Of a DNA stretch of 39,991 nt, positions 3,385 through 31,612 are shown piece after piece; the stretch's first letter is position 1; each line of letters opens with the position of its first letter. Source of the DNA: Candidatus Uhrbacteria bacterium (GTDB lineage Bacteria; Patescibacteriota; Patescibacteriia; 2-12-FULL-60-25). Where the stretch lies: contig JADZEJ010000005.1 in the NCBI GenBank assembly GCA_020850575.1, positions 1-39,991 of the forward strand. The letters run 5' to 3'. Position numbers and translations under genes: made by a program. The notes beneath the pieces were generated by a model, which made no database searches, was not told where the DNA came from, and was given only the letters and a program-made list of their open reading frames with translations.

Positions 3385-4839
3385 ATGAATACCACCAAAG
3401 CACTGGCTTGGAATACCGGCGTCCAAATCGCCGGTAAAATTATCTCGACTGCTATCGGTGTTATTGTCGTCAGTTTAATGACACGATATCTCGGTACCAC
3501 CGGCTTCGGACTGTACTCAACCGCTAATTCATATTTCCAAATTTTTGCCATCATTCTCGATTTTGGTTTAAACATAACCTTGGTACAAATGCTTGGCGAA
3601 AAAGCAGGCAACGCAATTTTTGAAAATAAATTAACCAGTGCGATTTACACTCTCCGCATTATTAGCGCAGGATTTCTCCTAACAGCTGCCGCTTTCCTCG
3701 GTTTAATTTTACCCTATCCTTGGGAATTAAAACTAGCTTTTTTTGGAATCTGGGGTTCATTCTTTTTCACTGCATTAAATCAAATCGTAATCGGTGTACA
3801 ACAACGTCATCTTAAAATGCATGTCGTCGCTTTAGGTGAAGTCATCGGTCGCTTCATCTTACTTGGAGGCGTTATCTGCGCCATGCTCAATGGTTGGGGT
3901 TTGGTGGCTATCGTAAGCATTGTATCCATTGGCAGCACTGCAAATTTCCTTGTAAACATTCTAATTGCAAAAAAATACGCTTCTTTCGCATGGAATTGGG
4001 ATCCGGAATTATGGAAAATAGTTCTACACCGTTCCTGGCCAATAGGTATCTCCATTATTTTTAATTTACTTTATTACAAAGCAGACTCACTCATCTTGTC
4101 CTATGTTCGTCCGTTCAGTGAAGTTGGGGTTTATAGTGCCGCATATCGAGTGCTTGAAATACTCGTCACGCTACCGTTTATGTACTGCGGTGTTCTTTTA
4201 CCGATGATTTCAAATGCATGGGCAAATAAAAACACGAAACAATTTCAAGAACTACTTTCAAATTCATTCACCACCATGTTTTTATTAGCCGCACCGATGG
4301 TTGCCGGCACAGTCATAATCGGCGATCGTATTATGTCCTTTGTCGCAGGAAATGATTTCATAGCTTCTGGAGATATCCTTAAAATCCTCATGTTGGCCGT
4401 CGGCATGATTTTTATTGGAACTGTTTCATCTCACGCCATCGTTGCTCTCAATAAACAAAAGTACATGCTGCGCTGGTACATTATGATCGCTGTCGTTACC
4501 TGCGCAGGGTATTTACTCTTTATTCCAATTTACGGTATGTATGCAGCTGCTTGGCTAACTGTTTTTGCCGAAACCTGCGTCACCCTCGTTACAACCTTCA
4601 TCGCGCTCAAAACATCAAATACGCATATTAATCTCAATCAAACTGTAAAAATTAGTGTATGTGCAATAATCATGGCTCTCATTATCTTACCGTTTAAACA
4701 AAATCATCTCATAATCCCAATTCTTATTGGTAGTATCGTCTACGGCATTCTTATTCTTATTGCTGGAGTAATTTCCAAGGATACCATTCGTGCGATTTTT
4801 TCAATCCGTAAAGGTATCCCAACAGCGGACAATACGTAA
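3385..4839 (+). CDS. Polysaccharide biosynthesis flippase (Wzx/MOP family)
   Basis: 484 residues with about 12-14 hydrophobic helices spread over the whole length. This is the size and topology of the polysaccharide-transport (PST/Wzx) branch of the MOP exporters. The N-terminus (N-T-K-A-L-A-W-N-T-G-V-Q-I-A-G-K) and the segment T-R-Y-L-G-T-T-G-F-G-L-Y-S-T-A are typical of this family. Wzx proteins flip lipid-linked glycan repeat units across the cytoplasmic membrane. The next gene, an O-antigen ligase/polymerase, starts on the base after this stop codon, so the two are co-translated and probably act in one surface-glycan pathway. It starts divergently from the SpoIID-like operon. No clear plus-strand promoter was found in the 120 bp between them. 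Confidence 0.85.
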   Translation: MNTTKALAWNTGVQIAGKIISTAIGVIVVSLMTRYLGTTGFGLYSTANSYFQIFAIILDFGLNITLVQMLGEKAGNAIFENKLTSAIYTLRIISAGFLLTAAAFLGLILPYPWELKLAFFGIWGSFFFTALNQIVIGVQQRHLKMHVVALGEVIGRFILLGGVICAMLNGWGLVAIVSIVSIGSTANFLVNILIAKKYASFAWNWDPELWKIVLHRSWPIGISIIFNLLYYKADSLILSYVRPFSEVGVYSAAYRVLEILVTLPFMYCGVLLPMISNAWANKNTKQFQELLSNSFTTMFLLAAPMVAGTVIIGDRIMSFVAGNDFIASGDILKILMLAVGMIFIGTVSSHAIVALNKQKYMLRWYIMIAVVTCAGYLLFIPIYGMYAAAWLTVFAETCVTLVTTFIALKTSNTHINLNQTVKISVCAIIMALIILPFKQNHLIIPILIGSIVYGILILIAGVISKDTIRAIFSIRKGIPTADNT

Positions 4840-12932: not shown

Positions 12933-14024
12933 TCACGGCCCTGGTGCTGCACCACCAGGAGCCGTAGGAGGCGTGGGCGGTGCAGGCGGATCGAAAAAGA
13001 AATTATACAATCGTGTTTTCCGTACCCAATCCATAAAACCGGGTTTACTGAGGAAAACTGGTTGCGAGTCTGCCCAACGTGCATTTGCCACAGCTTGATG
13101 TAGCGGTGTCAAAGACGATGAAGCAGAAACCTCAGTCACCACACCACCCGAAGCCGGCAACATATCCGCTACCGACTTTCCGATGGCACCAAAACGACTA
13201 GCGAATGTCTTCGCAGGAGGTGCCTTGGGCGGAAGCTCTCCACAACGACGCTCAATAAAAGCGATAATATCGTCCGGTGAAACACCTTCAGCCGAAACCT
13301 GCTCTGCCACAAAAGCAATGATCATTTCCAAATCACGCTTTTGCGTCAGCCTTGGACGAAATTGCTCAAACTTTTTTGAGGCATCGGGGTTTTGCTTAAT
13401 CTTCTGGATAATGCGATCGATGATCAAACCCTGACGCACATCCAACTGATTAACCGCATCCTGAAAAGTCGGTTCCTTCAGGGGGTTCGATGTAGTCCGT
13501 GTTTCACCAACAGCATCGTATTCAAGATACGTAGCCTCAAACACATCGTTCAAGGCATCGTTCAAGATATCGATACTATCGTGGGGCAAACCCCAATGTT
13601 GCAACTGAGTCCGAAACGCCGGAGGAATATTTCCGGTGATCTGCAAGAGCGGAATCAAAACATTCTTAACTCCGCCATGACCCAACTTTGAAGCCAAAAC
13701 GGATCGAACCGTTTCAGCTTTTTCGGTTTTCATACCGCGCCTTACCAATGCGGCAACCAACCGTGACATACCAAATCGGATCGTTTCCGGACCCAACGTT
13801 GCGAGCCAAGAAGAACGAAGGTTTTGATCCTTCCAATCCTTCCTTCTGCTCTTGTTTTGTTTTCCTTTCATGGTTTGATGATTCTTTTGAGGATCACCTC
13901 CCGTAAGAGGGTTCTGTCTTTGATCGTATTTCTTCATTTTCCTCTTCTCCTCTTCTTCTTCCTCCTCCTCTTCTTCCCCATCTTCATCATCTTGTTCTTC
14001 AAGATTTTCATCAAAGTCTTCCAT
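12933..14024 (-). CDS. Cytoplasmic protein with poly-Glu N-terminus and Pro-rich tail (unknown)
   Basis: 363 residues from the ATG at 14024, chosen because GAGGAG sits ten bases before it; upstream in-frame starts overlap that site. Residues 2-27 are almost all Asp/Glu. A strongly basic linker (28-65) follows, then a mainly helical domain (75-300) with no membrane helices. The tail ends in a Pro/Ala/Gly-rich stretch after the aromatic segment R-L-Y-N-F-F-F-D. The acidic-then-basic layout suggests interaction with a charged partner, possibly the Arg-rich repeats of the membrane protein encoded next (inference). First gene of a two-gene operon. Confidence 0.7.
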   Translation of the reverse strand: MEDFDENLEEQDDEDGEEEEEEEEEEKRKMKKYDQRQNPLTGGDPQKNHQTMKGKQNKSRRKDWKDQNLRSSWLATLGPETIRFGMSRLVAALVRRGMKTEKAETVRSVLASKLGHGGVKNVLIPLLQITGNIPPAFRTQLQHWGLPHDSIDILNDALNDVFEATYLEYDAVGETRTTSNPLKEPTFQDAVNQLDVRQGLIIDRIIQKIKQNPDASKKFEQFRPRLTQKRDLEMIIAFVAEQVSAEGVSPDDIIAFIERRCGELPPKAPPAKTFASRFGAIGKSVADMLPASGGVVTEVSASSSLTPLHQAVANARWADSQPVFLSKPGFMDWVRKTRLYNFFFDPPAPPTPPTAPGGAAPGP

Positions 14025-20930: not shown

Positions 20931-21011
20931 ATTGTCACTAGTTTACACGATTACATAAAAATCGACGAATATAAAAAATATACCCAAAAAAACGAACAGG
21001 TTCACGCAAGC

Positions 21012-22106
21012 CTACACTCCGACCCGAAAATGGCACACGTCGCCATCTTTCATGACGTAATCCTTCCCCTCAATCCGTAGCAATCCCTTGTCACGACAAG
21101 CGGACTCGCTCCCCTCTCGTATCAAATCCTCAGCCGAAATCACTTCAGCGCGAATAAATGTTTTTTCAAAATCCGAATGAATCACACCCGCCGCTTGTGG
21201 AGCCTTTGCGCCCTTAAGTACCGTCCAAGCGCGCGTCTCAACTTCACCCGTAGTCAAAAACGTATACAAACCTAAAACATCGTAGGAAACCTTAATAAGT
21301 TTATCCAAACCACTTTCTTCAAGTCCCATCGTTTCCATATATTCCTTTTTTTCTTCATCACTCATCGAGGCTAATTCAGCTTCCATCTTCACACAAACCG
21401 GCACCACACGAATATCCATTCTTTGAACCAAATTTGGTAATTTTGATTTCCACGAACCATTCATCATCTGACCCTCATCAACATTAACCACATACAACAT
21501 GGGTTTCATCGTCAAAAATTGTAATTGCCTCAATTCTTTCTGTTCATCATCTGTCCATTCTAATTCACGCAAATGTTTTCCGTCACTCAACGCAATTTTC
21601 GCTTTTTCCAAAGCAACCTTTAAAATTTCAAGTTCTTTCGTTTTTCCACTTTTCATTTGACGCGACAAAGACTCGATACGCTTGCTCACCGTTTCCAAAT
21701 CCGCTAAAGCAAGTTCAATTCCAATCGTTTCCGCATCACGTTCTGGATTAATGCTTCCATCCACATGAATCACATTTTCATCATCAAATGCGCGCAACAC
21801 CTGCGCGATTGCATCACATTCACGAATATGCGACAAAAATTTATTTCCCAAACCCTGCCCCTCAGAAGCACCTTTTACCAAACCTGCAATATCGACAAAC
21901 TCTATCGTTGTCGGAACAATCTTCTGTGATTTTGATATCGCAGAAAGCTTCGCCAAACGCTCGTCCGGAACCTCAACCACGCCCACATTCGGGTCAATGG
22001 TACAAAAAGGGAAATTAGCGCAATCAACTGCTTTTTTTGTAATAGCCGAAAAAAGCGTTGATTTGCCAACATTTGGTAATCCGACAATTCCAATTTGGAG
22101 AGGCAT
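21012..22106 (-). CDS. ychF: Ribosome-binding ATPase YchF
   Basis: 364 residues, the usual YchF length. P-loop G-L-P-N-V-G-K-S-T (8-16), switch region D-I-A-G-L-V-K-G-A, and N-V-D-E in place of the N-K-x-D guanine motif, which explains ATP rather than GTP preference in this family. Coiled-coil helix in the middle and a C-terminal TGS domain (~280-364). YchF binds ribosomes and is involved in stress and translation quality responses. Monocistronic, with a promoter at 22119-22147, divergent from the ABC-F gene. Confidence 0.97.
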   Translation of the reverse strand: MPLQIGIVGLPNVGKSTLFSAITKKAVDCANFPFCTIDPNVGVVEVPDERLAKLSAISKSQKIVPTTIEFVDIAGLVKGASEGQGLGNKFLSHIRECDAIAQVLRAFDDENVIHVDGSINPERDAETIGIELALADLETVSKRIESLSRQMKSGKTKELEILKVALEKAKIALSDGKHLRELEWTDDEQKELRQLQFLTMKPMLYVVNVDEGQMMNGSWKSKLPNLVQRMDIRVVPVCVKMEAELASMSDEEKKEYMETMGLEESGLDKLIKVSYDVLGLYTFLTTGEVETRAWTVLKGAKAPQAAGVIHSDFEKTFIRAEVISAEDLIREGSESACRDKGLLRIEGKDYVMKDGDVCHFRVGV

Positions 22107-25657: not shown

Positions 25658-25733
25658 GGGCCTTTAGCTCAGCTGGTAGAGCGCTTCCATGGCATGGAAG
25701 AGGTCAACGGTTCGATCCCGTTAAGGTCCACCA
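25658..25733 (+). tRNA. tRNA-Ala (anticodon GGC), integration target
   Basis: 76 bases with encoded CCA (25731-25733). Acceptor GGGCCTT/AAGGTCC (one G-T), D-arm AGCTCAGCTGGTAGAGC, anticodon stem CTTCC/GGAAG with loop ATGGCAT giving GGC, T-arm with GTTCGATCC. Its last eight bases belong to the 12-bp core repeat of the integrated element, and the gene stays intact after integration. Confidence 0.96.
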
Positions 25734-27303
25734 TACAGGGTACCGCGTCACATGGCGCGGTATTTTGTTGCAAAAAGTCCTGAAAAAGTGAAGAAAATGG
25801 CACTGCTTCGGCGGTTCGATAGCCGCTTTCTCGGCTGTATGCAATTCTTTGGTCGAAAATGAAGTAATAAAGCCGGTGTTTTTCAATAGCGGATACTTTT
25901 TCCCAAACAGAATGGGGATTTTTTAGTAAGGTGGTAGCCTTGTCGAGAGCGGTTCGATAAGGAATCGTGAGGTCAATGTCTTGATTTCCACTAGGAGACT
26001 TCTCATCCTCTGTCATCAATTCCTCGATCTGCGCTTCGTAGGTTTTGCGTACTTTGAGTGAAGAGGTTTCGCTTGCGGCGTCAGCGAGCTGTTTGATCTT
26101 CTTTTTTCTTTCTTCCGCCTGACGCGCGATCTGCTCCTGTCGTTTGTGGAACTCTACGACCTCTCCACTCCATACTCGATCAAACATGAGGTTCACAAGC
26201 TGACCGGCTTCCTGCTTCAACGTATTCTCTTTCAGTACCGTATCGAATTGAGATTCAATATCTGCCTTTTTGATAGATTTTCCATAGACACGGCAGGTCT
26301 TACTGTGACAAACATAAAGCGGATATTTTTTACTACGACCCTTCGACCAGGCTGCTCTCAAGGGCTCCTTGCAATTCGCGCACAAAACAAGCCCCCTCAA
26401 AGGAAAGTCCTCTGACACATCAACGCGTATTCTTTTGTTGCGTCCATCATTCTTCAAGCGTTTCTGAATCAGATTGAACGTTTCTTCTGAAATGAGGGCT
26501 TGATGATGACCAACCCGCCGCGACACCTCCCATGGCGCATATTCAACGAAGCCAGCATAAAACGAACTTCTTAGTATGTTATCAAACTCCACAATTCTCT
26601 TTTCAGCAGAGTTGTTCCAAAAGCCCTTTTCAACAAGAAAACGACAAGCATCCATTTTTCGTACAAAGGTGCCATCCGCAAAACCATTTAATGCAGCGAT
26701 TAAAACGTCTTTATCTTTCTCGTCAGGAATAGCTAACTTTCCGTGAGCAGGATGCTTCACCATCTTGTAGCCTCTTTTTGCCACAAACGGCCAATAGCCA
26801 AGCTCAAGGCGGGCTTTTTGCTTTTGGATAACCTGCCTACGGTTCTTCTTTCGTTCAAGTTGAGCACCGGCTGCCAAGATAATCTCCGCGTATTCGCCCT
26901 CTTCGGTTTCGTCGAGATTGAAGTTGAGGCAGATCGGTTCCACGCTGCGGAGCTTGAAGGCCGCTCTTAGTTTGATATGAGATACGACTTCTCGAGCTAA
27001 TCGCGAAAGATCATCAAAAACCACCAAATACTTTTTATGCGGGTTGGCGTCTATATGGGCTAACAACTGCCTCATAGCCGGCCTTTCCATGAAGTCACCT
27101 CCGCCGCTAGCGGTATCAGGAAATGTCATTTCATGTGGCACGTTCAGTAAGCGTAACCTTGAAATACAACGCTCTTCCTGTGTGAGCAGACCAGATCCCT
27201 CTATTTCCTGTTTCTTGCTCGATACCCGAGCATATACAAGACCAATCCGACCCTCATAAGGGTTGATCGTGGGGTTTGGGATTGAGCTTTTTGGTATCGA
27301 CAT
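25669..27303 (-). CDS. Large serine recombinase (integrase of the element)
   Basis: 544 residues. N-terminal resolvase domain (~18-165) with catalytic Ser28 in Y-A-R-V-S-S and later D-D-L-S-R-L-A-R. Recombinase domain (~190-290). Zinc ribbon near 325-355 with C-A-N-C and C-H-S-K-T-C. Coiled coil (~370-440). This is the domain order of large serine integrases, which recombine att sites through short cores. The last 18 residues after the core are read from the antisense strand of tRNA-Ala (L-N-G-I-E-P-L-T-S-S), so they are a product of integration. In a circular form the frame would continue into DNA now at 31536-31432 and give 560 residues. Third gene of the MerR/66-codon/recombinase operon. 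Confidence 0.93.
   Translation of the reverse strand: MSIPKSSIPNPTINPYEGRIGLVYARVSSKKQEIEGSGLLTQEERCISRLRLLNVPHEMTFPDTASGGGDFMERPAMRQLLAHIDANPHKKYLVVFDDLSRLAREVVSHIKLRAAFKLRSVEPICLNFNLDETEEGEYAEIILAAGAQLERKKNRRQVIQKQKARLELGYWPFVAKRGYKMVKHPAHGKLAIPDEKDKDVLIAALNGFADGTFVRKMDACRFLVEKGFWNNSAEKRIVEFDNILRSSFYAGFVEYAPWEVSRRVGHHQALISEETFNLIQKRLKNDGRNKRIRVDVSEDFPLRGLVLCANCKEPLRAAWSKGRSKKYPLYVCHSKTCRVYGKSIKKADIESQFDTVLKENTLKQEAGQLVNLMFDRVWSGEVVEFHKRQEQIARQAEERKKKIKQLADAASETSSLKVRKTYEAQIEELMTEDEKSPSGNQDIDLTIPYRTALDKATTLLKNPHSVWEKVSAIEKHRLYYFIFDQRIAYSRESGYRTAEAVPFSSLFQDFLQQNTAPCDAVPCMVDLNGIEPLTSSMPWKRSTS
25726..25737 (+). other. attL core (12-bp direct repeat)
   Basis: GTCCACCATACA, spanning the last eight bases of tRNA-Ala and four bases beyond. 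Repeated exactly at 31537-31548; flanking bases differ on both sides. Confidence 0.8.
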
Positions 27304-27324
27304 AGGCCTGCAACTCCGCTTTTA

Positions 27325-27525
27325 TTATGTTCCTGCAAAATCCCTCAAGGTAATCCAGTCGTGCTTTGATTTGTTCGTCCGAGCTCGTCCGGTCATTGAG
27401 CATCTTGCGACACTCCTCGATGGTAACCATGGCATTTCATGGTTGCGATAGAGTTTCAGTTTTTCCTGATAACGCATATCTGCTTTCGTAAAGGCTTCGG
27501 TTTTCTCCCGATAGCCCATTATCAT
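27325..27525 (-). CDS. Small basic protein coupled to the recombinase (unknown)
   Basis: 66 residues. The ATG (27525-27523) overlaps the TGA of the MerR-like gene (ATGA), and the recombinase starts 21 bases after its stop, so it is translated as the middle gene of three. Basic and helical in its first half. The second half, S-R-S-V-A-R-C-S-M-T-G-R-A-R ... L-R-D-F-A-G, shows a faint likeness to the R-C-x-x-T-G-R-x-R ... L-R-x-x-A core of ribosomal protein uS14, but without the usual C-terminus. A role in recombination directionality is possible from position only. Confidence 0.5.
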   Translation of the reverse strand: MIMGYREKTEAFTKADMRYQEKLKLYRNHEMPWLPSRSVARCSMTGRARTNKSKHDWITLRDFAGT

Positions 27526-28334
27526 TTCAATCTTTTACGTGTCGTCACCTGTACCGATTTCGGTACACCGTTCTCGTACTTGGTAACGACCTGGCCGTAC
27601 ATTTTTTCCTGCTCCACTTGATTCTTGAGTCTGTGTGGTGCCAATGGGGATGTGGTGGTTTCGGTGCTTTCGATTTCCGTAATTTCTCCCTGATCGTCGA
27701 TTTTAACTTTGATGTCGTTGTTATTTCCCATATGGATACTAGTCAACAATTCAATATCCTTTTCTGAAAGCGCGAACAGGGTTTTGACTGCGGGAGTGTG
27801 GAGACCCATGCCTTTTAGGATCGCTTTCAGCGAAATTAACAATACGTCAAAACTATCCAAAAATAATTTCGCCGCTTCTATTTGAGCCACTGTCGCAACC
27901 TCTGCTTCTCCGTCGCTCATTACTAAAATGTATGTGTCTGCATCACTGAGCCACGCCTTTGCAAGATAGTACTCAAAACATGGATACCTCTCGCGTTGTT
28001 TATTCCACGACATAGCACCCTTTCTTGCATATGCAATTTTTTCAAGAGGAAGCCCAAAGTCTCTCATGCGAACTACGGCCTTAAGCCAGACCATCTCGGG
28101 CAACGTGAATTTACGCCAGCTGCCATCACCCCTCACGCCATCGGGGAGAAGGCCGGATTGATCCCAATGGTTGATAACCCGATAGGCCACATCGGTTTCT
28201 CCAACGGTAAAACGCCGATCATTCATCAACTCTCTGACTTTCTGGAACTTGTCATTAAATTGATAATCGGCAAGATCAAAAGCGAAGGCGTCGCTTCGGG
28301 GTATAAACAACTTGCTCAAGGTTTTTTTAGCCAT
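27522..28334 (-). CDS. MerR-like HTH regulator of the element
   Basis: 270 residues from the ATG at 28334. Residues ~45-105 form a MerR-type winged helix: Y-R-V-I-N-H-W-D-Q-S-G-L-L-P-D, W-R-K-F-T-L-P-E-M-V-W-L-K-A-V-V-R-M-R-D-F-G-L-P-L-E-K-I. A ~100-residue helical/beta middle domain follows, then a polar tail ending in basic residues (T-T-R-K-R-L-K). The tail may add DNA contacts. The start is fixed by the promoter: the expected transcription start coincides with the ATG, so the mRNA seems leaderless. First gene of the recombinase operon; likely excision regulator or repressor (inference). Confidence 0.78.
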   Translation of the reverse strand: MAKKTLSKLFIPRSDAFAFDLADYQFNDKFQKVRELMNDRRFTVGETDVAYRVINHWDQSGLLPDGVRGDGSWRKFTLPEMVWLKAVVRMRDFGLPLEKIAYARKGAMSWNKQRERYPCFEYYLAKAWLSDADTYILVMSDGEAEVATVAQIEAAKLFLDSFDVLLISLKAILKGMGLHTPAVKTLFALSEKDIELLTSIHMGNNNDIKVKIDDQGEITEIESTETTTSPLAPHRLKNQVEQEKMYGQVVTKYENGVPKSVQVTTRKRLK

Positions 28335-28340
28335 GGATAA

Positions 28341-28368
28341 ATTATACATCAATGTATATTTATGCCAA
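28341..28368 (-). promoter_or_regulatory. Leaderless promoter with palindromic operator for the MerR gene
   Basis: Minus-strand TTGGCA (28368-28363), 16-base spacer, perfect TATAAT (28346-28341). Only six bases separate the -10 from the ATG, placing the start point on the A of the ATG. The spacer and -10 include the inverted repeat ATACAT-TG-ATGTAT (28357-28344), a likely binding site for the encoded regulator. Confidence 0.7.
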
Positions 28369-28629
28369 GCCCTTAAAGTCGGGCTTTCCTAAATGTGGCA
28401 AATACGGCAATATATGACCACAACTAAACCCGCCTAAACCTTTGGTTTGCCAAGGGCATGGCACGAAATCCACGCAAATACTAACGGTCTCCTGACCGGC
28501 ACTATTTGCGTGGTCCACATCTGAAAGGGTGTGGGGCAGCTCCGAAAGGGGTTGTCGCTCGGCTCGGGGGACCCTTTGTGTTTCTCCGAATCGAGGCCTA
28601 ATTATTCAATACCTCTATTTTATTTTTCT
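28367..28629. other. Hairpin-rich intergenic region of the element
   Basis: About 260 bases without a gene. Visible dyads: AAGCCC/GGGCTT (28367-28386); CCTTTGG/CCAAGGG (28439-28456, one mismatch); CCACGCAAATA/TATTTGCGTGG (28470-28480 with 28503-28513) enclosing CGGTC/GACCG; and CCACA/TGTGG (28515-28534), followed by a G-rich stretch to ~28575. It separates the divergent MerR operon and the two-helix protein gene. Candidates: structured 5' UTR RNA, replication or transfer origin, or recombinase accessory sites. Confidence 0.5.
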
Positions 28630-29082
28630 ATGGCTCAAACAAATCCACATTGGCTCATTGAAAAAGCCCCCGCCGATATCAAAGCCCAAGTCAGGATTGC
28701 TGTTCAGCATGGCTATCAGGTGGTCAGTCAAACGCATTCCACCGCACAACTGATGCGAAAGAAGCGGTTCAGCTGTTTGATCGCAACTGTGCTCTTTCTC
28801 TGTTTTGCACTCCCATTTTTCATTTATCTTTTCTACTATCTCGCCAAGAAAGATGACCTTATTTACCTTGATTTGGAAACACAACCATCCAAGGCCGAAT
28901 TAGAGAAACAGATAGCATCCGGCGTCACGAGTTCATCTGAAAGAAACAAAAAGATTCTCTACGGTGTCCTGATTTTCTTCGGGGTGATGATGGTTATTGG
29001 GATCATCGGTAACGCGCTGGATGGAAATAAGACTTCAAACGGCAGTACCGGAAGTGTTACGAGTTCGACAACCGCTAAATAG
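28630..29082 (+). CDS. Two-helix membrane protein (unknown)
   Basis: 150 residues from the ATG at 28630; the frame is open upstream to 28531, but those codons lie in the structured region and look non-coding. Cytoplasmic N-terminus A-Q-T-N-P-H-W-L-I-E-K, then G-Y-Q-V-V-S-Q-T-H-S-T-A-Q-L-M-R-K-K-R-F-S, a segment type seen just before membrane helices in many actinobacterial and phage-borne small proteins. Helices at ~52-75 and ~115-135, Ser/Thr/Gly-rich tail. Only plus-strand gene in the left half of the element; may be cargo or a surface/immunity protein. Confidence 0.65.
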   Translation: MAQTNPHWLIEKAPADIKAQVRIAVQHGYQVVSQTHSTAQLMRKKRFSCLIATVLFLCFALPFFIYLFYYLAKKDDLIYLDLETQPSKAELEKQIASGVTSSSERNKKILYGVLIFFGVMMVIGIIGNALDGNKTSNGSTGSVTSSTTAK

Positions 29083-29121
29083 CAACAAATGACGTAAACT
29101 GGTAAAGAAACAGTAAAGAAA

Positions 29122-29149
29122 ATGACAGGTTTTATACCTGCCATTTTTT
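29122..29149 (+). terminator. Rho-independent terminator of the two-helix protein gene
   Basis: ATGACAGGT/ACCTGCCAT (one mismatch) with loop TTTAT and six T. The hairpin overlaps the stop of the convergent HTH gene. Confidence 0.65.
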
Positions 29150-29539
29150 GATGCTGGAAAAAGCGTCTTCGAGAGGATCGAACGATACCGCTTGTAGCTC
29201 AAGAGGCTTTTGCTCTCCGCGCAATTCTCGAATCAACTTGAAGAAAATCCCATACAGTTTATCCGTGGAAACATCTTCCAAGGTTCTTTTTTCGAGTTCA
29301 TTCTTAACCTCCCCAAGTCTCTGAGAGAGTAGCGATAGCTCGTGCTCTTTTGTAATGCGTAAACGTTCACGCATTGCCTCTTGATTGATAGCTGTGAGAT
29401 TACTCACGTCCTCACTTCTCTCACGGCTCCACTCAATGAGAGTTGGCTTTGATACGCCCAAGGCTTCAGAAATAGAGGCAAAGCTTTTGCCTTGCGCTCT
29501 CAATTCAACAAACTGATTTCTTGTCTCCATATCGTACAT
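29132..29539 (-). CDS. HTH-domain protein (resolvase/terminase-small-subunit-like helix)
   Basis: 135 residues from the ATG at 29539 (alternatives: GTG 29563, ATG 29530). N-terminal HTH: E-L-R-A-Q-G-K-S-F-A-S-I-S-E-A-L-G-V-S-K-P-T-L-I-E-W-S. A long charged coiled-coil helix (~45-95) and a short C-terminal domain follow. The HTH is of the Hin/IS-transposase/terminase-small-subunit style used to bind DNA repeats. Monocistronic on the minus strand. It could be an element-specific DNA-binding or partition factor. Confidence 0.6.
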   Translation of the reverse strand: MYDMETRNQFVELRAQGKSFASISEALGVSKPTLIEWSRERSEDVSNLTAINQEAMRERLRITKEHELSLLSQRLGEVKNELEKRTLEDVSTDKLYGIFFKLIRELRGEQKPLELQAVSFDPLEDAFSSIKKWQV

Positions 29540-29758
29540 AGTTCGTGAAAATGTATTCCCCACCCCTTAGCATTAGCCTACTCTAACGCTTTGAATAAGT
29601 GTCTTCAAGGTTGTTTCGCTAAATTTTCACCCCAGAACTCTCTCGCATGCCTCTGTCCCAAATGACATTTGGGGAAAACATCATGCAGTGAAGATCTTTT
29701 TATTCGATCAACAGATTCGTATGTTCTAAAATATAAAAGACGCCCAATTGGGCGTCTT
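29540..29758. other. Intergenic region with an extended hairpin
   Basis: Apart from the palindromic terminator at its right end, a nested dyad is seen: GCATG ... CCCAAAT-GAC-ATTTGGG ... CATGC (29645-29686). No ORF was supported. It lies upstream of the minus-strand HTH gene, so it may be its control region. Confidence 0.35.
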
Positions 29759-29760
29759 TT
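29735..29760 (-). terminator. Perfect 26-nt palindromic terminator of the XRE-ImmA operon
   Basis: AAAAGACGCCCAA followed by its exact reverse complement, with A/T runs on both flanks. It overlaps the last codons of the ImmA-like gene. Confidence 0.8.
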
Positions 29761-30316
29761 ATTTTACTTTATTGAGACGTAACGTCATGGCAGACTGGCT
29801 AACCTCGTACTGTTCAGATAGCTCTTCTATAATTTCGGAAATGCCCTTTCCTTGGGTGCGAAGCATATTCACGTCTCTTAGAATCATGCTTTCCGGCATT
29901 AGTAGCTCAGAGGCGAATTGATTAGCTTCAATTTCTCTTAGGTGAGTAGCCTGAGAAGAAGTCCCATTTCGATAATGAACTAGCTCCGCCGTATCATGAT
30001 CGTCTACATGGACCGACTGTGATGGATGCAATATGAAATGGCCTATTTCGTGTGCGATCGTGAATCTTTGGCGCTTAGGAACATTGTTTCTATTAACCAT
30101 TATCAGATTCTGACCTTGCTTTATTCTGATATAGCCAGCGAGACTTCGATCCTCAAAAGAGGCTTCCTTTGTTTCAATTCCTAATTCGTTGGCTAATCCT
30201 TCAACATCCACTTTGCCATTCTTGATAATCTGAGGGTATTGAGCAAGAAGTGTTCGTGCGCGCTCTCTGGCGTTCTGGATGACATCTGAGAAGTTTGTCA
30301 TATGTAATGTCACCAT
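29759..30316 (-). CDS. ImmA/IrrE family metallo-endopeptidase
   Basis: 185 residues. Zinc-binding motif H-E-I-G-H-F-I-L-H (~91-99) and a downstream R-E-I-E-A-N-Q-F-A-S-E-L-L-M-P that supplies the third ligand, both hallmarks of the ImmA/IrrE (DUF955) family. In ICEBs1 the ImmA protease cleaves the XRE repressor ImmR to induce excision (family knowledge). The start ATG overlaps the XRE gene's stop as TAATG; an ATG five codons in is an alternative. The C-terminal helices end near S-Q-S-A-M-T-L-R-L. Confidence 0.9.
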   Translation of the reverse strand: MVTLHMTNFSDVIQNARERARTLLAQYPQIIKNGKVDVEGLANELGIETKEASFEDRSLAGYIRIKQGQNLIMVNRNNVPKRQRFTIAHEIGHFILHPSQSVHVDDHDTAELVHYRNGTSSQATHLREIEANQFASELLMPESMILRDVNMLRTQGKGISEIIEELSEQYEVSQSAMTLRLNKVK

Positions 30317-30585
30317 TAAAATTTAATAGAGTATTTCTCGGATAGCAGATCTTGGTTAATTTTGTCCATCAAGGCGTCCAGGCTGAATCCGTAGATTTTG
30401 GAAAGACCATAAAGTTCCCAGGCCGAGATTCCTTGATTACCGTTTTCTATCGCCGATAGGCTACTTCTGGATATATCCAAACCTGCGGCTTCGACAACGT
30501 TGTCTAAAGTAAAGCCCTTCTCTTGTCTGTATTCCTGCAGGCGCTTTCCAAGCGCCGATCTTAGGGATTGTTCATCGAAAACCAT
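30316..30585 (-). CDS. XRE-family HTH regulator (putative ImmA substrate)
   Basis: 89 residues from the ATG at 30585. The frame is open to 30690, but a promoter -10 (30626-30621) and the operator lie inside that extension, so the shorter start is chosen. HTH: L-G-K-R-L-Q-E-Y-R-Q-E-K-G-F-T-L-D-N-V-V-E-A-A-G-L-D-I-S-R-S-S-L-S-A-I-E-N-G, then the usual Y-G-L-S-K-I-Y-G-F-S helix pair. Coupled to the ImmA-like protease by overlapping stop and start, as in repressor/anti-repressor pairs of integrative elements. Confidence 0.85.
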   Translation of the reverse strand: MVFDEQSLRSALGKRLQEYRQEKGFTLDNVVEAAGLDISRSSLSAIENGNQGISAWELYGLSKIYGFSLDALMDKINQDLLSEKYSIKF

Positions 30586-30620
30586 ATGGACATTTTTACC
30601 ACACTTGACACATCCTGTCC

Positions 30621-30653
30621 AGTATACATATCCCATCCAGGATTCCTGGATGG
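30621..30653 (-). promoter_or_regulatory. XRE promoter with 21-bp palindromic operator
   Basis: The perfect dyad CCATCCAGGA-T-TCCTGGATGG (30633-30653) covers the -35/spacer of a minus-strand promoter whose -10 is TATACT (30626-30621). The -35 is poor. The dyad is the natural binding site for the dimeric XRE protein encoded just downstream. Confidence 0.7.
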
Positions 30654-30691
30654 ATATTGTCTTGCATGTTCCATCTAGGCCTGATACCATA

Positions 30692-30743
30692 GAGGCACCG
30701 GGTTTTAATTCCGGTGCCTCAGCTCGAGCCTGTGCAGGTCGAG
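30692..30743 (+). other. Two adjacent strong hairpins in a divergent control region
   Basis: GAGGCACCGG/CCGGTGCCTC (30692-30701 with 30711-30720, perfect) is followed three bases later by CTCGA-g-CCTG/CAGG-TCGAG (30723-30743). They sit between the leftward XRE genes and the rightward DUF3892 gene. No T-run follows on the plus strand, so they are not ordinary terminators. Possible operator, small RNA or leader structure. Confidence 0.5.
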
Positions 30744-30825
30744 TAACTGATTCTGTAGCAAGATCATGTTACCACAGGTTCGGAGAGGCAACAATTTTTA
30801 AGCCCTCTGGGCAATTTCAGAATCT

Positions 30826-31113
30826 ATGATTCAGGTCACCTGTGTTAACAAAGACGGCGGTAACCATTTCAACCGTCATGAGGGTATCACTAACTTCGGT
30901 TGGACTGACACCGCTAATGGTCAACGTGGAAATTCAGGGCGCGATCAAATGATCGCTTTCTTGGAGAAGGGTGGGCAGGCCTTCACTCGCGATGTTTATA
31001 ACAATGTTGCGTGGTTGGTCGTTCGCATGGGTCAAGCACGTAAATACGTGCAGACTGTTGCCGACAACAAATTTACGGACAACTTGCTCAGCTTGAATGA
31101 ATGCCGCATCTAG
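30826..31113 (+). CDS. DUF3892 domain protein
   Basis: 95 residues. I-Q-V-T-C-V-N-K-D at the start, His-containing N-terminal part, and the closing K-Y-V-Q-T-V-A-D-N-K-F-T-D-N-L-L-S-L-N-E-C match DUF3892, a short family of unknown function that often sits beside DUF2188-like genes. No membrane helix. First gene of a two-gene plus-strand operon on the right arm of the element; likely cargo. Confidence 0.75.
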   Translation: MIQVTCVNKDGGNHFNRHEGITNFGWTDTANGQRGNSGRDQMIAFLEKGGQAFTRDVYNNVAWLVVRMGQARKYVQTVADNKFTDNLLSLNECRI

Positions 31114-31114
31114 T

Positions 31115-31345
31115 ATGAAAAATGGCCAACATGTTGTTCCTCATGATGGTGAATGGGCCGTGCGTCGTGAAGGAGCTGAGCGTGTAACGTCGGTCCACTC
31201 CACTCAGGCTGAGGCGGAAGCAGCGGCTCGTGAAATCGCCCGCAACCAAGGCGTTGAGCTGTTCATCCATGGACGCGACGGACGCATTCGCGATCGTGAT
31301 AGCTTTGGGAACGATCCGTATCCTCCAAAGGACACTCGTCATTAA
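31115..31345 (+). CDS. DUF2188 domain protein
   Basis: 76 residues from the ATG at 31115, one base after the DUF3892 stop; an ATG at 31097 would overlap that gene. G-Q-H-V-V-P-H-D-G-E-W-A-V-R-R-E-G, T-Q-A-E-A-E-A-A-A-R-E-I-A and I-H-G-R-D-G-R-I-R-D-R-D-S-F-G-N-D-P-Y-P-P are the conserved segments of DUF2188. This family of small proteins has unknown function and is widespread on bacterial chromosomes and mobile DNA. Confidence 0.88.
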   Translation: MKNGQHVVPHDGEWAVRREGAERVTSVHSTQAEAEAAAREIARNQGVELFIHGRDGRIRDRDSFGNDPYPPKDTRH

Positions 31346-31358
31346 GAGCATGCGGGCA

Positions 31359-31395
31359 AGAGATCGCTTCGTCGGGAGGCGGTCTCTTTTCTTTA
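31359..31395 (+). terminator. Rho-independent terminator of the DUF3892-DUF2188 operon
   Basis: AGAGATCGC/GCGGTCTCT (one T-G pair) with an 11-base loop, followed by TTTTCTTT. It separates the operon from the leftward recombinase tail remnant. Confidence 0.75.
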
Positions 31396-31431
31396 GTTCA
31401 ATTCAAGAGATGTGGTAGGAGATGGAGCGAA

Positions 31432-31536
31432 TCATCCAGCAAATTCAAGCGCTTTTTGCAGGCTGACGCTCGTTTGGTAATACTCCCAGAAGCGAAAAAG
31501 GTAGTCTTTTAACTGATTCAATGTATTGCCGCTCAT
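31432..31536 (-). pseudogene. Displaced 3' end of the recombinase gene (34 codons plus stop)
   Basis: When the two 12-bp cores are joined, the recombinase frame passes C-M-V-D and continues through 34 codons (M-S-G-N-T-L-N-Q-L-K-D-Y ... A-L-E-F-A-G) to a TGA at 31434-31432. In the integrated state this segment has no start or promoter of its own. The encoded tail is amphipathic and aromatic-rich, unlike random sequence. It accounts for most of the otherwise gene-free 31388-31536 region. Confidence 0.65.
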
Positions 31537-31548
31537 GTCCACCATACA
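31537..31548 (+). other. attR core (12-bp direct repeat)
   Basis: Exact copy of 25726-25737. Element DNA lies to its left and the presumed original downstream flank of tRNA-Ala to its right. Confidence 0.8.
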
Positions 31549-31577
31549 CTGCACACTCCAGACGGAGTGTGCAGTGT
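31546..31577 (+). terminator. Strong hairpin, probable original terminator of tRNA-Ala
   Basis: Perfect 14-bp stem ACACTGCACACTCC/GGAGTGTGCAGTGT with loop AGAC; a run of T follows about 12 bases later (31589-31596). After excision it would stand 1-2 bases past the tRNA's CCA. Confidence 0.55.
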
Positions 31578-31612
31578 CTTAGAAGAAATTTTTTTTCAAC
31601 TAAAACTACTTT

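Follow-up and report, generated by a model that had tools for sequence, protein, structure and literature searches.

We report that the gene of a large serine recombinase, carried by an integrated element of about 5.8 kb in a genome of Candidatus Uhrbacteria bacterium, is very probably split by the integration of the element itself, and that the part cut off is a C-terminal exon under selection. The element lies in contig JADZEJ010000005.1, which was analysed as a whole (39,991 nt, hereafter the window) and belongs to a genome of 1.04 Mb. Judged from reconstructed circles, attP, the attachment site of the circular form, lies inside the recombinase gene, such that integration would remove a conserved C-terminal helix. 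The split-gene layout is real and widespread. An exchange of the recombinase C-terminus on integration had been proposed from the letters of this DNA alone (hereafter the sequence-only reading), and it is borne out by homologous tails, in-frame junctions, contiguous copies and purifying selection.

The recombinase gene in its two states

The catalytic, Recombinase and zinc-ribbon domains assign the protein to the large serine recombinases (Pfam matches to Resolvase, 4.9e-15, Zn_ribbon_recom, 7.9e-07, and Recombinase, 1.1e-04). Long helices were seen at residues 346–435 in a low-confidence structure model; the single-sequence model had a predicted local distance difference test score (pLDDT) of 38 and was useless, and the five-sequence model reached 62, with residues 490–544 unreliable.

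Two copies of the 12-bp core GTCCACCATACA, separated by 5811 bp, delimit the element (Table 1). When the tRNA end region was compared by script with the DNA upstream of the recombinase, this proved to be the sole exact repeat of at least 10 bp. The recombinase frame crosses the core at attL and ends in the antisense of the tRNA, reading CMVD, then LNGIEPLTSSMPWKRSTS and a stop. If the two cores are fused as in a circle, the frame reads CMVD, then MSGNTLNQLKDYLFRFWEYYQTSVSLQKALEFAG and a stop, which gives 34 codons past the core and 560 residues in total; the predicted circle junction for this frame is CCCTGTATGGTGGACATGAGCGGC. The fused protein is nowhere contiguous within the window. The coordinates and lengths given by the sequence-only reading (544 vs. 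560 residues, 12-bp cores, 34-codon tail) proved correct when re-derived from the open reading frame (ORF), the repeat and the core fusion. By codon arithmetic, 34 open codons arise by chance in about 20% of cases and are weak evidence alone; because such an open stretch is unremarkable in itself, the reality of the tail rests on the relatives.

Tails at the far ends of related elements

Relatives of the recombinase, 24–63% identical and mostly from metagenome assemblies, were found in a search of 380 genomes of the phylum and of genome contigs. In L036 (55% identity, ssrA target, cores TGGAGATGGCGGG 8 kb apart) the rebuilt circle reads LEMAG, then KRLNQLKSYLSKFWEFYQTCPNLQKALESAK and a stop, and this tail is homologous to that of the window (tblastn E ~1e-12). 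A profile of five tails retrieved unseeded ones in L033 (two), L049, L052 and L037 (E from 9e-8 to 3e-3), a genome-scale profile search added G246 (1.7e-5) as well as G201, G191 and G156 (5e-4 to 6e-4), and a third round yielded L035 (6e-10), L123 (two), a third tail in L122, and L118. Later profiles contain earlier matches, and E-values are cited only for sequences outside the seed. A plasmid of Tritonibacter mobilis with tRNA-Thr as the target bears the tail MVQLQRDSLNSLFDVLLEWETHL, in frame and 18 kb from attL (E 8.5e-4). With this plasmid included, about 24 homologous tails were found in all, in relatives targeting ssrA and other tRNAs; all of those linked to a recombinase share its strand and sit at the element's far end.

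The attL/attR pairs tested (n = 9) have 5–13 bp in common, always with GTGGA or TGGAG, the antisense of the target 3′ end. The frames match across the junction in every one of the nine pairs, and in Tritonibacter as well. Among the 39 homologues with a tRNA or transfer-messenger RNA (tmRNA) gene at the recombinase end, 38 run in frame through the 3′ end of their target, the targets being tRNA-Ala, Glu, Lys, Tyr, Met, Ile, Arg, His and ssrA.

The recombinase C-terminus and the tail were also found contiguous, in four copies (L037, L040, L113 and L115): L040 has a truncated recombinase whose 398 open codons run stop-free into the tail, and the other three are similar. L115 reads the core in a different frame (NGG, not VD), yet the tail past the core is in frame again. 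Downstream in L115, L040 and L037 a second recombinase ends in a tRNA or tmRNA, and we read these loci as tandem arrays where the upstream recombinase is fused to the tail of its neighbour; as far as their sequences tell, such arrays would make hybrid attP sites and chimeric proteins. Joining of this kind to a following island was foreseen by McMurdie et al. for the recombinase DsiB, considered below (PMC3146451). The array positions are 1441 and 6150 in L115 (G213:C24) and 6637 and 16456 in L040, with a further array in L037.

Series of tail exons 0.7–2.5 kb apart, apparently with no recombinase between them, occur at 13393, 14094 and 15160 in L122 (G026:C5), at 4086 and 5008 in L033, and at 167 and 2592 in L123, as if small recombinase-less elements, or remnants, had accumulated at one target. 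On alphaproteobacterial megaplasmids, unannotated C-termini of recombinases of this family terminate in antisense tRNA-Thr (Tritonibacter, L076/L130) and in antisense tRNA-Ala (Paracoccus, L077/L131). The genome of the window itself holds a second, distant serine recombinase (L075, G000:C4:40500-60400; ~24% identity) ending in antisense tRNA-His; its 10-bp core repeat lies 9.4 kb off, beside a hairpin, and its circle tail is unrelated to the 34-codon tail studied here.

Free or viral copies were sought in viral contigs with single recombinases and none was found, and plasmid and phage collections gave distant relatives only. Loci where ARAGORN detected no tRNA had been considered as candidate free circles and were dropped, their targets being ssrA.

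Selection on the tail and geometry of the att sites

The tail was compared over its codons 10–27 in seven independent pairs. In the tail frame, the ratio of nonsynonymous to synonymous divergence (pN/pS) was 0.37 (bootstrap 0.27–0.48), and for the two remaining frames it was 1.00 and 0.98. The differences at the three codon positions numbered 30, 26 and 50, the third position diverging most; these codons lie at distances above about 30 bp from the core. Purifying selection thus extends beyond the attP DNA, and the tail is therefore a protein under selection. The helix formed by the tail of the window has an amphipathic moment of 0.46, which is reached in 2.5% of shuffles, in agreement with the amphipathic helix named by the sequence-only reading; for the other tails, amphipathicity ranges from borderline to significant, and the antisense-tRNA tail lacks it (moment 0.06).

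In the DNA, the antisense T-loop at attL (TCGAACC) begins 17 nt away from the G of GTGGA, and in the tails a related motif (TTGGAACC, TTGAATC) begins at 22. This shift of +5 bp in attP vs. attB, the host target site, was found in seven of the nine pairs, the window included. The motif covaries with the target: the tmRNA of L052 and L040 has TTAAACCC, and their tails bear TTAAAC-like motifs. A zinc-domain motif displaced by 5 bp between attP and attB has been described for the Listeria integrase (PMC3783163). With their short cores and this displacement, the sites look like good serine-integrase sites of typical geometry.

Comparison with known systems

The sequence-only reading knew of no serine integrase controlled through its own integration, and here it has to be corrected. 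For DsiB of the Dehalococcoides ssrA islands, the 3′ end of which always overlaps attL, it has been suggested that full function is perhaps attained only in the circle or before another island (McMurdie et al. 2011, PMC3146451). Like our recombinase, DsiB is a serine enzyme of about 540 residues and has no stop ahead of its tRNA-like target (ssrA), where it overlaps attL; in the window, too, the gene overlaps attL and the stop lies beyond the 3′ end of the target. The DsiB paper has only divergent tails and an unclear stop, whereas here a conserved tail exon at the far end is under selection (PMC3146451). DsiB, compared here by description only, neighbours the small serine recombinase DsiA, whereas none stands beside our recombinase, and no second, DsiA-like serine recombinase was present among the element ORFs scanned.

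Integrases split by integration are known as the suicidal integrases of the archaeal elements SSV, pTN3 and pT26-2 and have been called exclusively archaeal (PMC8371274). As here, attP lies in the integrase gene and the two parts of the gene end up at the two ends of the element. The archaeal enzymes, however, are of the tyrosine type (Phage_integr_3), whereas ours bears serine recombinase domains, and integration separates their Int(N) from the catalytic Int(C), whereas our recombinase loses no more than a C-terminal helix.

In the integration-dependent immunity of mycobacteriophages, integration into a tRNA gene removes the C-terminal segment of a regulator and changes its behaviour (Broussard 2013, PMC9262239). 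That system pairs a tyrosine integrase with an altered repressor gene, and the segment lost is an ssrA-like degradation tag; in our element attP is in the recombinase gene, and the tail ends in ALEFAG, which is not an LAA-type tag.

To our knowledge, the large serine integrases of the A118/phiC31/Bxb1 type have attP next to the integrase gene rather than within it, and integration leaves their protein unchanged. They share with our recombinase the domain set, the short att sites and the motif placed 5 bp further out in attP (PMC3783163). In engineered fusions of integrases with recombination directionality factors (RDFs), the fused moiety acts within the subunit and reverses the direction of the reaction (PMC5737554); these fusions are artificial and their moiety is a directionality factor, whereas the tail described here has no known relation to one.

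What is new here is a family of bacterial serine recombinases with a conserved, severed C-terminal exon; the idea of self-disruption itself was known. Self-splitting integrases, until now described as tyrosine enzymes found in archaea only (PMC8371274), are joined by a serine family that shares their layout and is split mildly, at the C-terminus; the family is common in Patescibacteria and has at least one alphaproteobacterial relative. The passing remark on DsiB turns into a testable rule, namely that the true C-terminus of such recombinases is to be looked for at the island's opposite end. In databases, integrated-form copies bear the antisense-tRNA tail and not the selected one, and where serine integrases are mined for genome engineering, expressing the protein of the integrated form may be a mistake.

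Proposed mechanism and alternatives

Taken as a whole, the data are probably best explained by a self-split integrase with a selected tail and self-limiting integration. The large serine recombinase of the element would insert it into the 3′ end of tRNA-Ala. While the DNA is circular, the recombinase gene would be whole and encode a 560-residue enzyme ending in the conserved amphipathic helix. Integration would cut the gene at the core: the catalytic part would remain beside the tRNA with 18 meaningless antisense-tRNA codons added to it, and the helix exon would be stranded at the far end of the element. The complete enzyme may be the tailed one, which attP × attB integration would require or favour; on removal of the tail the enzyme of the integrated state would recombine less or with a different bias, and integration would limit itself. 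In serine integrases it is the coiled coil at the C-terminus that governs direction (PMC3783163), and fusing a moiety to the integrase can reverse that direction (PMC5737554); a C-terminal helix is for this reason a plausible regulator. That tail loss acts as a functional switch is, on this sequence evidence, a serious possibility falling a little short of probable. Still more tentatively, the family may sense its integration state through the C-terminus, the tailed form being set for integration and the loss of the tail blocking or reversing the reaction, with no separate repressor of the integrase. If it is true that the tail controls direction, the switch would be a very simple one.

Several observations weigh against the self-split integrase or limit the case for it. 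Every circle considered here was reconstructed from sequence, and none was observed directly. The nearest relative, L032 (63% identity, tRNA-Ala), has an in-frame TAG (3725-3727) just before the core and no tail in either state; the expectation that integrated homologues end in the antisense of their target thus held for 38 of the 39, and this single one ends before the core, which the sequence-only reading had named as evidence against itself. Either L032 has lost the tail or the copy is decaying; unless it has decayed, the tail can apparently be lost and would not be strictly required. The tail profile had no match in a distant group targeting mostly tRNA-Glu (L059–L061, L066 and L069), circles rebuilt for the tRNA-Glu/tRNA-Met group (L059–L061 and L069) showed no common tail, and in Paracoccus (L131) none was found within 50 kb. 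A search by flanking genes gave no usable empty target site, and matches to a degenerate pattern were noise, the spacing of the pattern being wrong. Finally, the first nine tail codons, the conserved W-N included, are attP DNA too and constrained as such, and because the same letters serve as attP, their conservation is not evidence for a protein.

This last point is what a reading of the conservation as attP DNA only, with an open frame devoid of protein meaning, would build on, since the motif GGAAC/TGAAT with the W-N codons belongs to attP. It is nevertheless very improbable, given that beyond about 30 bp from the core the third positions diverge and pN/pS is low in the tail frame alone, and that the contiguous copies preserve the frame. 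A chance open frame beside the repeat, for which the one-in-five expectation speaks, is refuted by the homologous tails in many independent elements and deserves practically no credence. Much more weight is due to the view that the tail is simply the natural C-terminus, serving stability or the general fold, and that its exchange merely comes along, and is tolerated, when attP is packed into the end of the gene; the two forms would then work alike and a separate factor would set direction. Large serine integrases do require a separate excision factor (PMC3783163), the frame kept open into the target in nearly all homologues means that a near-full-length integrated enzyme exists, and L032 has dropped the tail. 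Selection past the attP DNA nevertheless implies that the tail matters in the circle, yet integration always removes it. We regard this neutral account as nearly as likely as the switch. An enzyme inactive without its tail, locked in place until a complete copy comes in trans, as proposed for SSV, pTN3 and pT26-2, would fit the gene architecture (PMC8371274) and the tandem arrays L115, L040 and L037, where the neighbour supplies the upstream recombinase with a tail again. We find it unlikely: only the last ~34 residues are lost, and the catalytic, recombinase and zinc-ribbon domains stay intact, unlike in the archaeal split.

Other features of the element

The remaining genes of the self-split element are listed in Table 1. 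The hairpin between DUF2188 and the tail exon has its T-run confined to the + strand and serves DUF2188. It had been proposed that DUF2188 and the recombinase converge on this terminator in the circle; this stands for DUF2188, and the ending of the minus-strand recombinase there is unsupported.

Table 1. Features of the integrated element and its target (positions in the window).
Feature	Position	Strand	Remark
Host tRNA-Ala(GGC)	25658-25733	+	integration target, restored by the element; ARAGORN
Large serine recombinase, integrated form, 544 residues	25669-27303	-	Resolvase, Recombinase, Zn_ribbon_recom
C-terminus of the integrated state only	25669-25725	-	18 codons and TGA from antisense tRNA-Ala
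attB-side zinc-domain motif TCGAACCG	25708-25715	-	antisense T-loop; 17-24 nt from G of GTGGA
attL core GTCCACCATACA	25726-25737		at the tRNA-Ala 3′ end; recombinase strand TGTATGGTGGAC
Element body, ~5.8 kb	25738-31536		from the cores
MerR-type helix-turn-helix (HTH) protein	27522-28352	-	upstream of the recombinase
Small protein	29132-29563	-	weak HTH_Tnp_1/HTH_23 matches, under Pfam cut-offs
IrrE/ImmA-like peptidase	29759-30316	-	Peptidase_M78
XRE-type HTH regulator	30316-30690	-	paired with the peptidase
DUF3892 protein	30826-31113	+
DUF2188 protein	31097-31345	+	convergent with the recombinase in the circle
Terminator-like hairpin	31358-31388	+	+ orientation only
Severed 3′ exon of the recombinase	31432-31536	-	34 codons and TGA, in frame only when circular
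attP-side zinc-domain motif TTGAATCA	31514-31521	-	22-29 nt from G of GTGGA, 5 bp further out than in attB
attR core GTCCACCATACA	31537-31548		same 12 bp

Immediately beyond attR, at 31549-31580, an inverted repeat (TGCACACTCC-AGAC-GGAGTGTGCA) probably represents the original terminator of the tRNA-Ala gene, moved away from it by the element. Elsewhere in the window, positions 21001-22000, right before a gene for an ABC-F type ATPase, show a marked local GC skew (-0.39).

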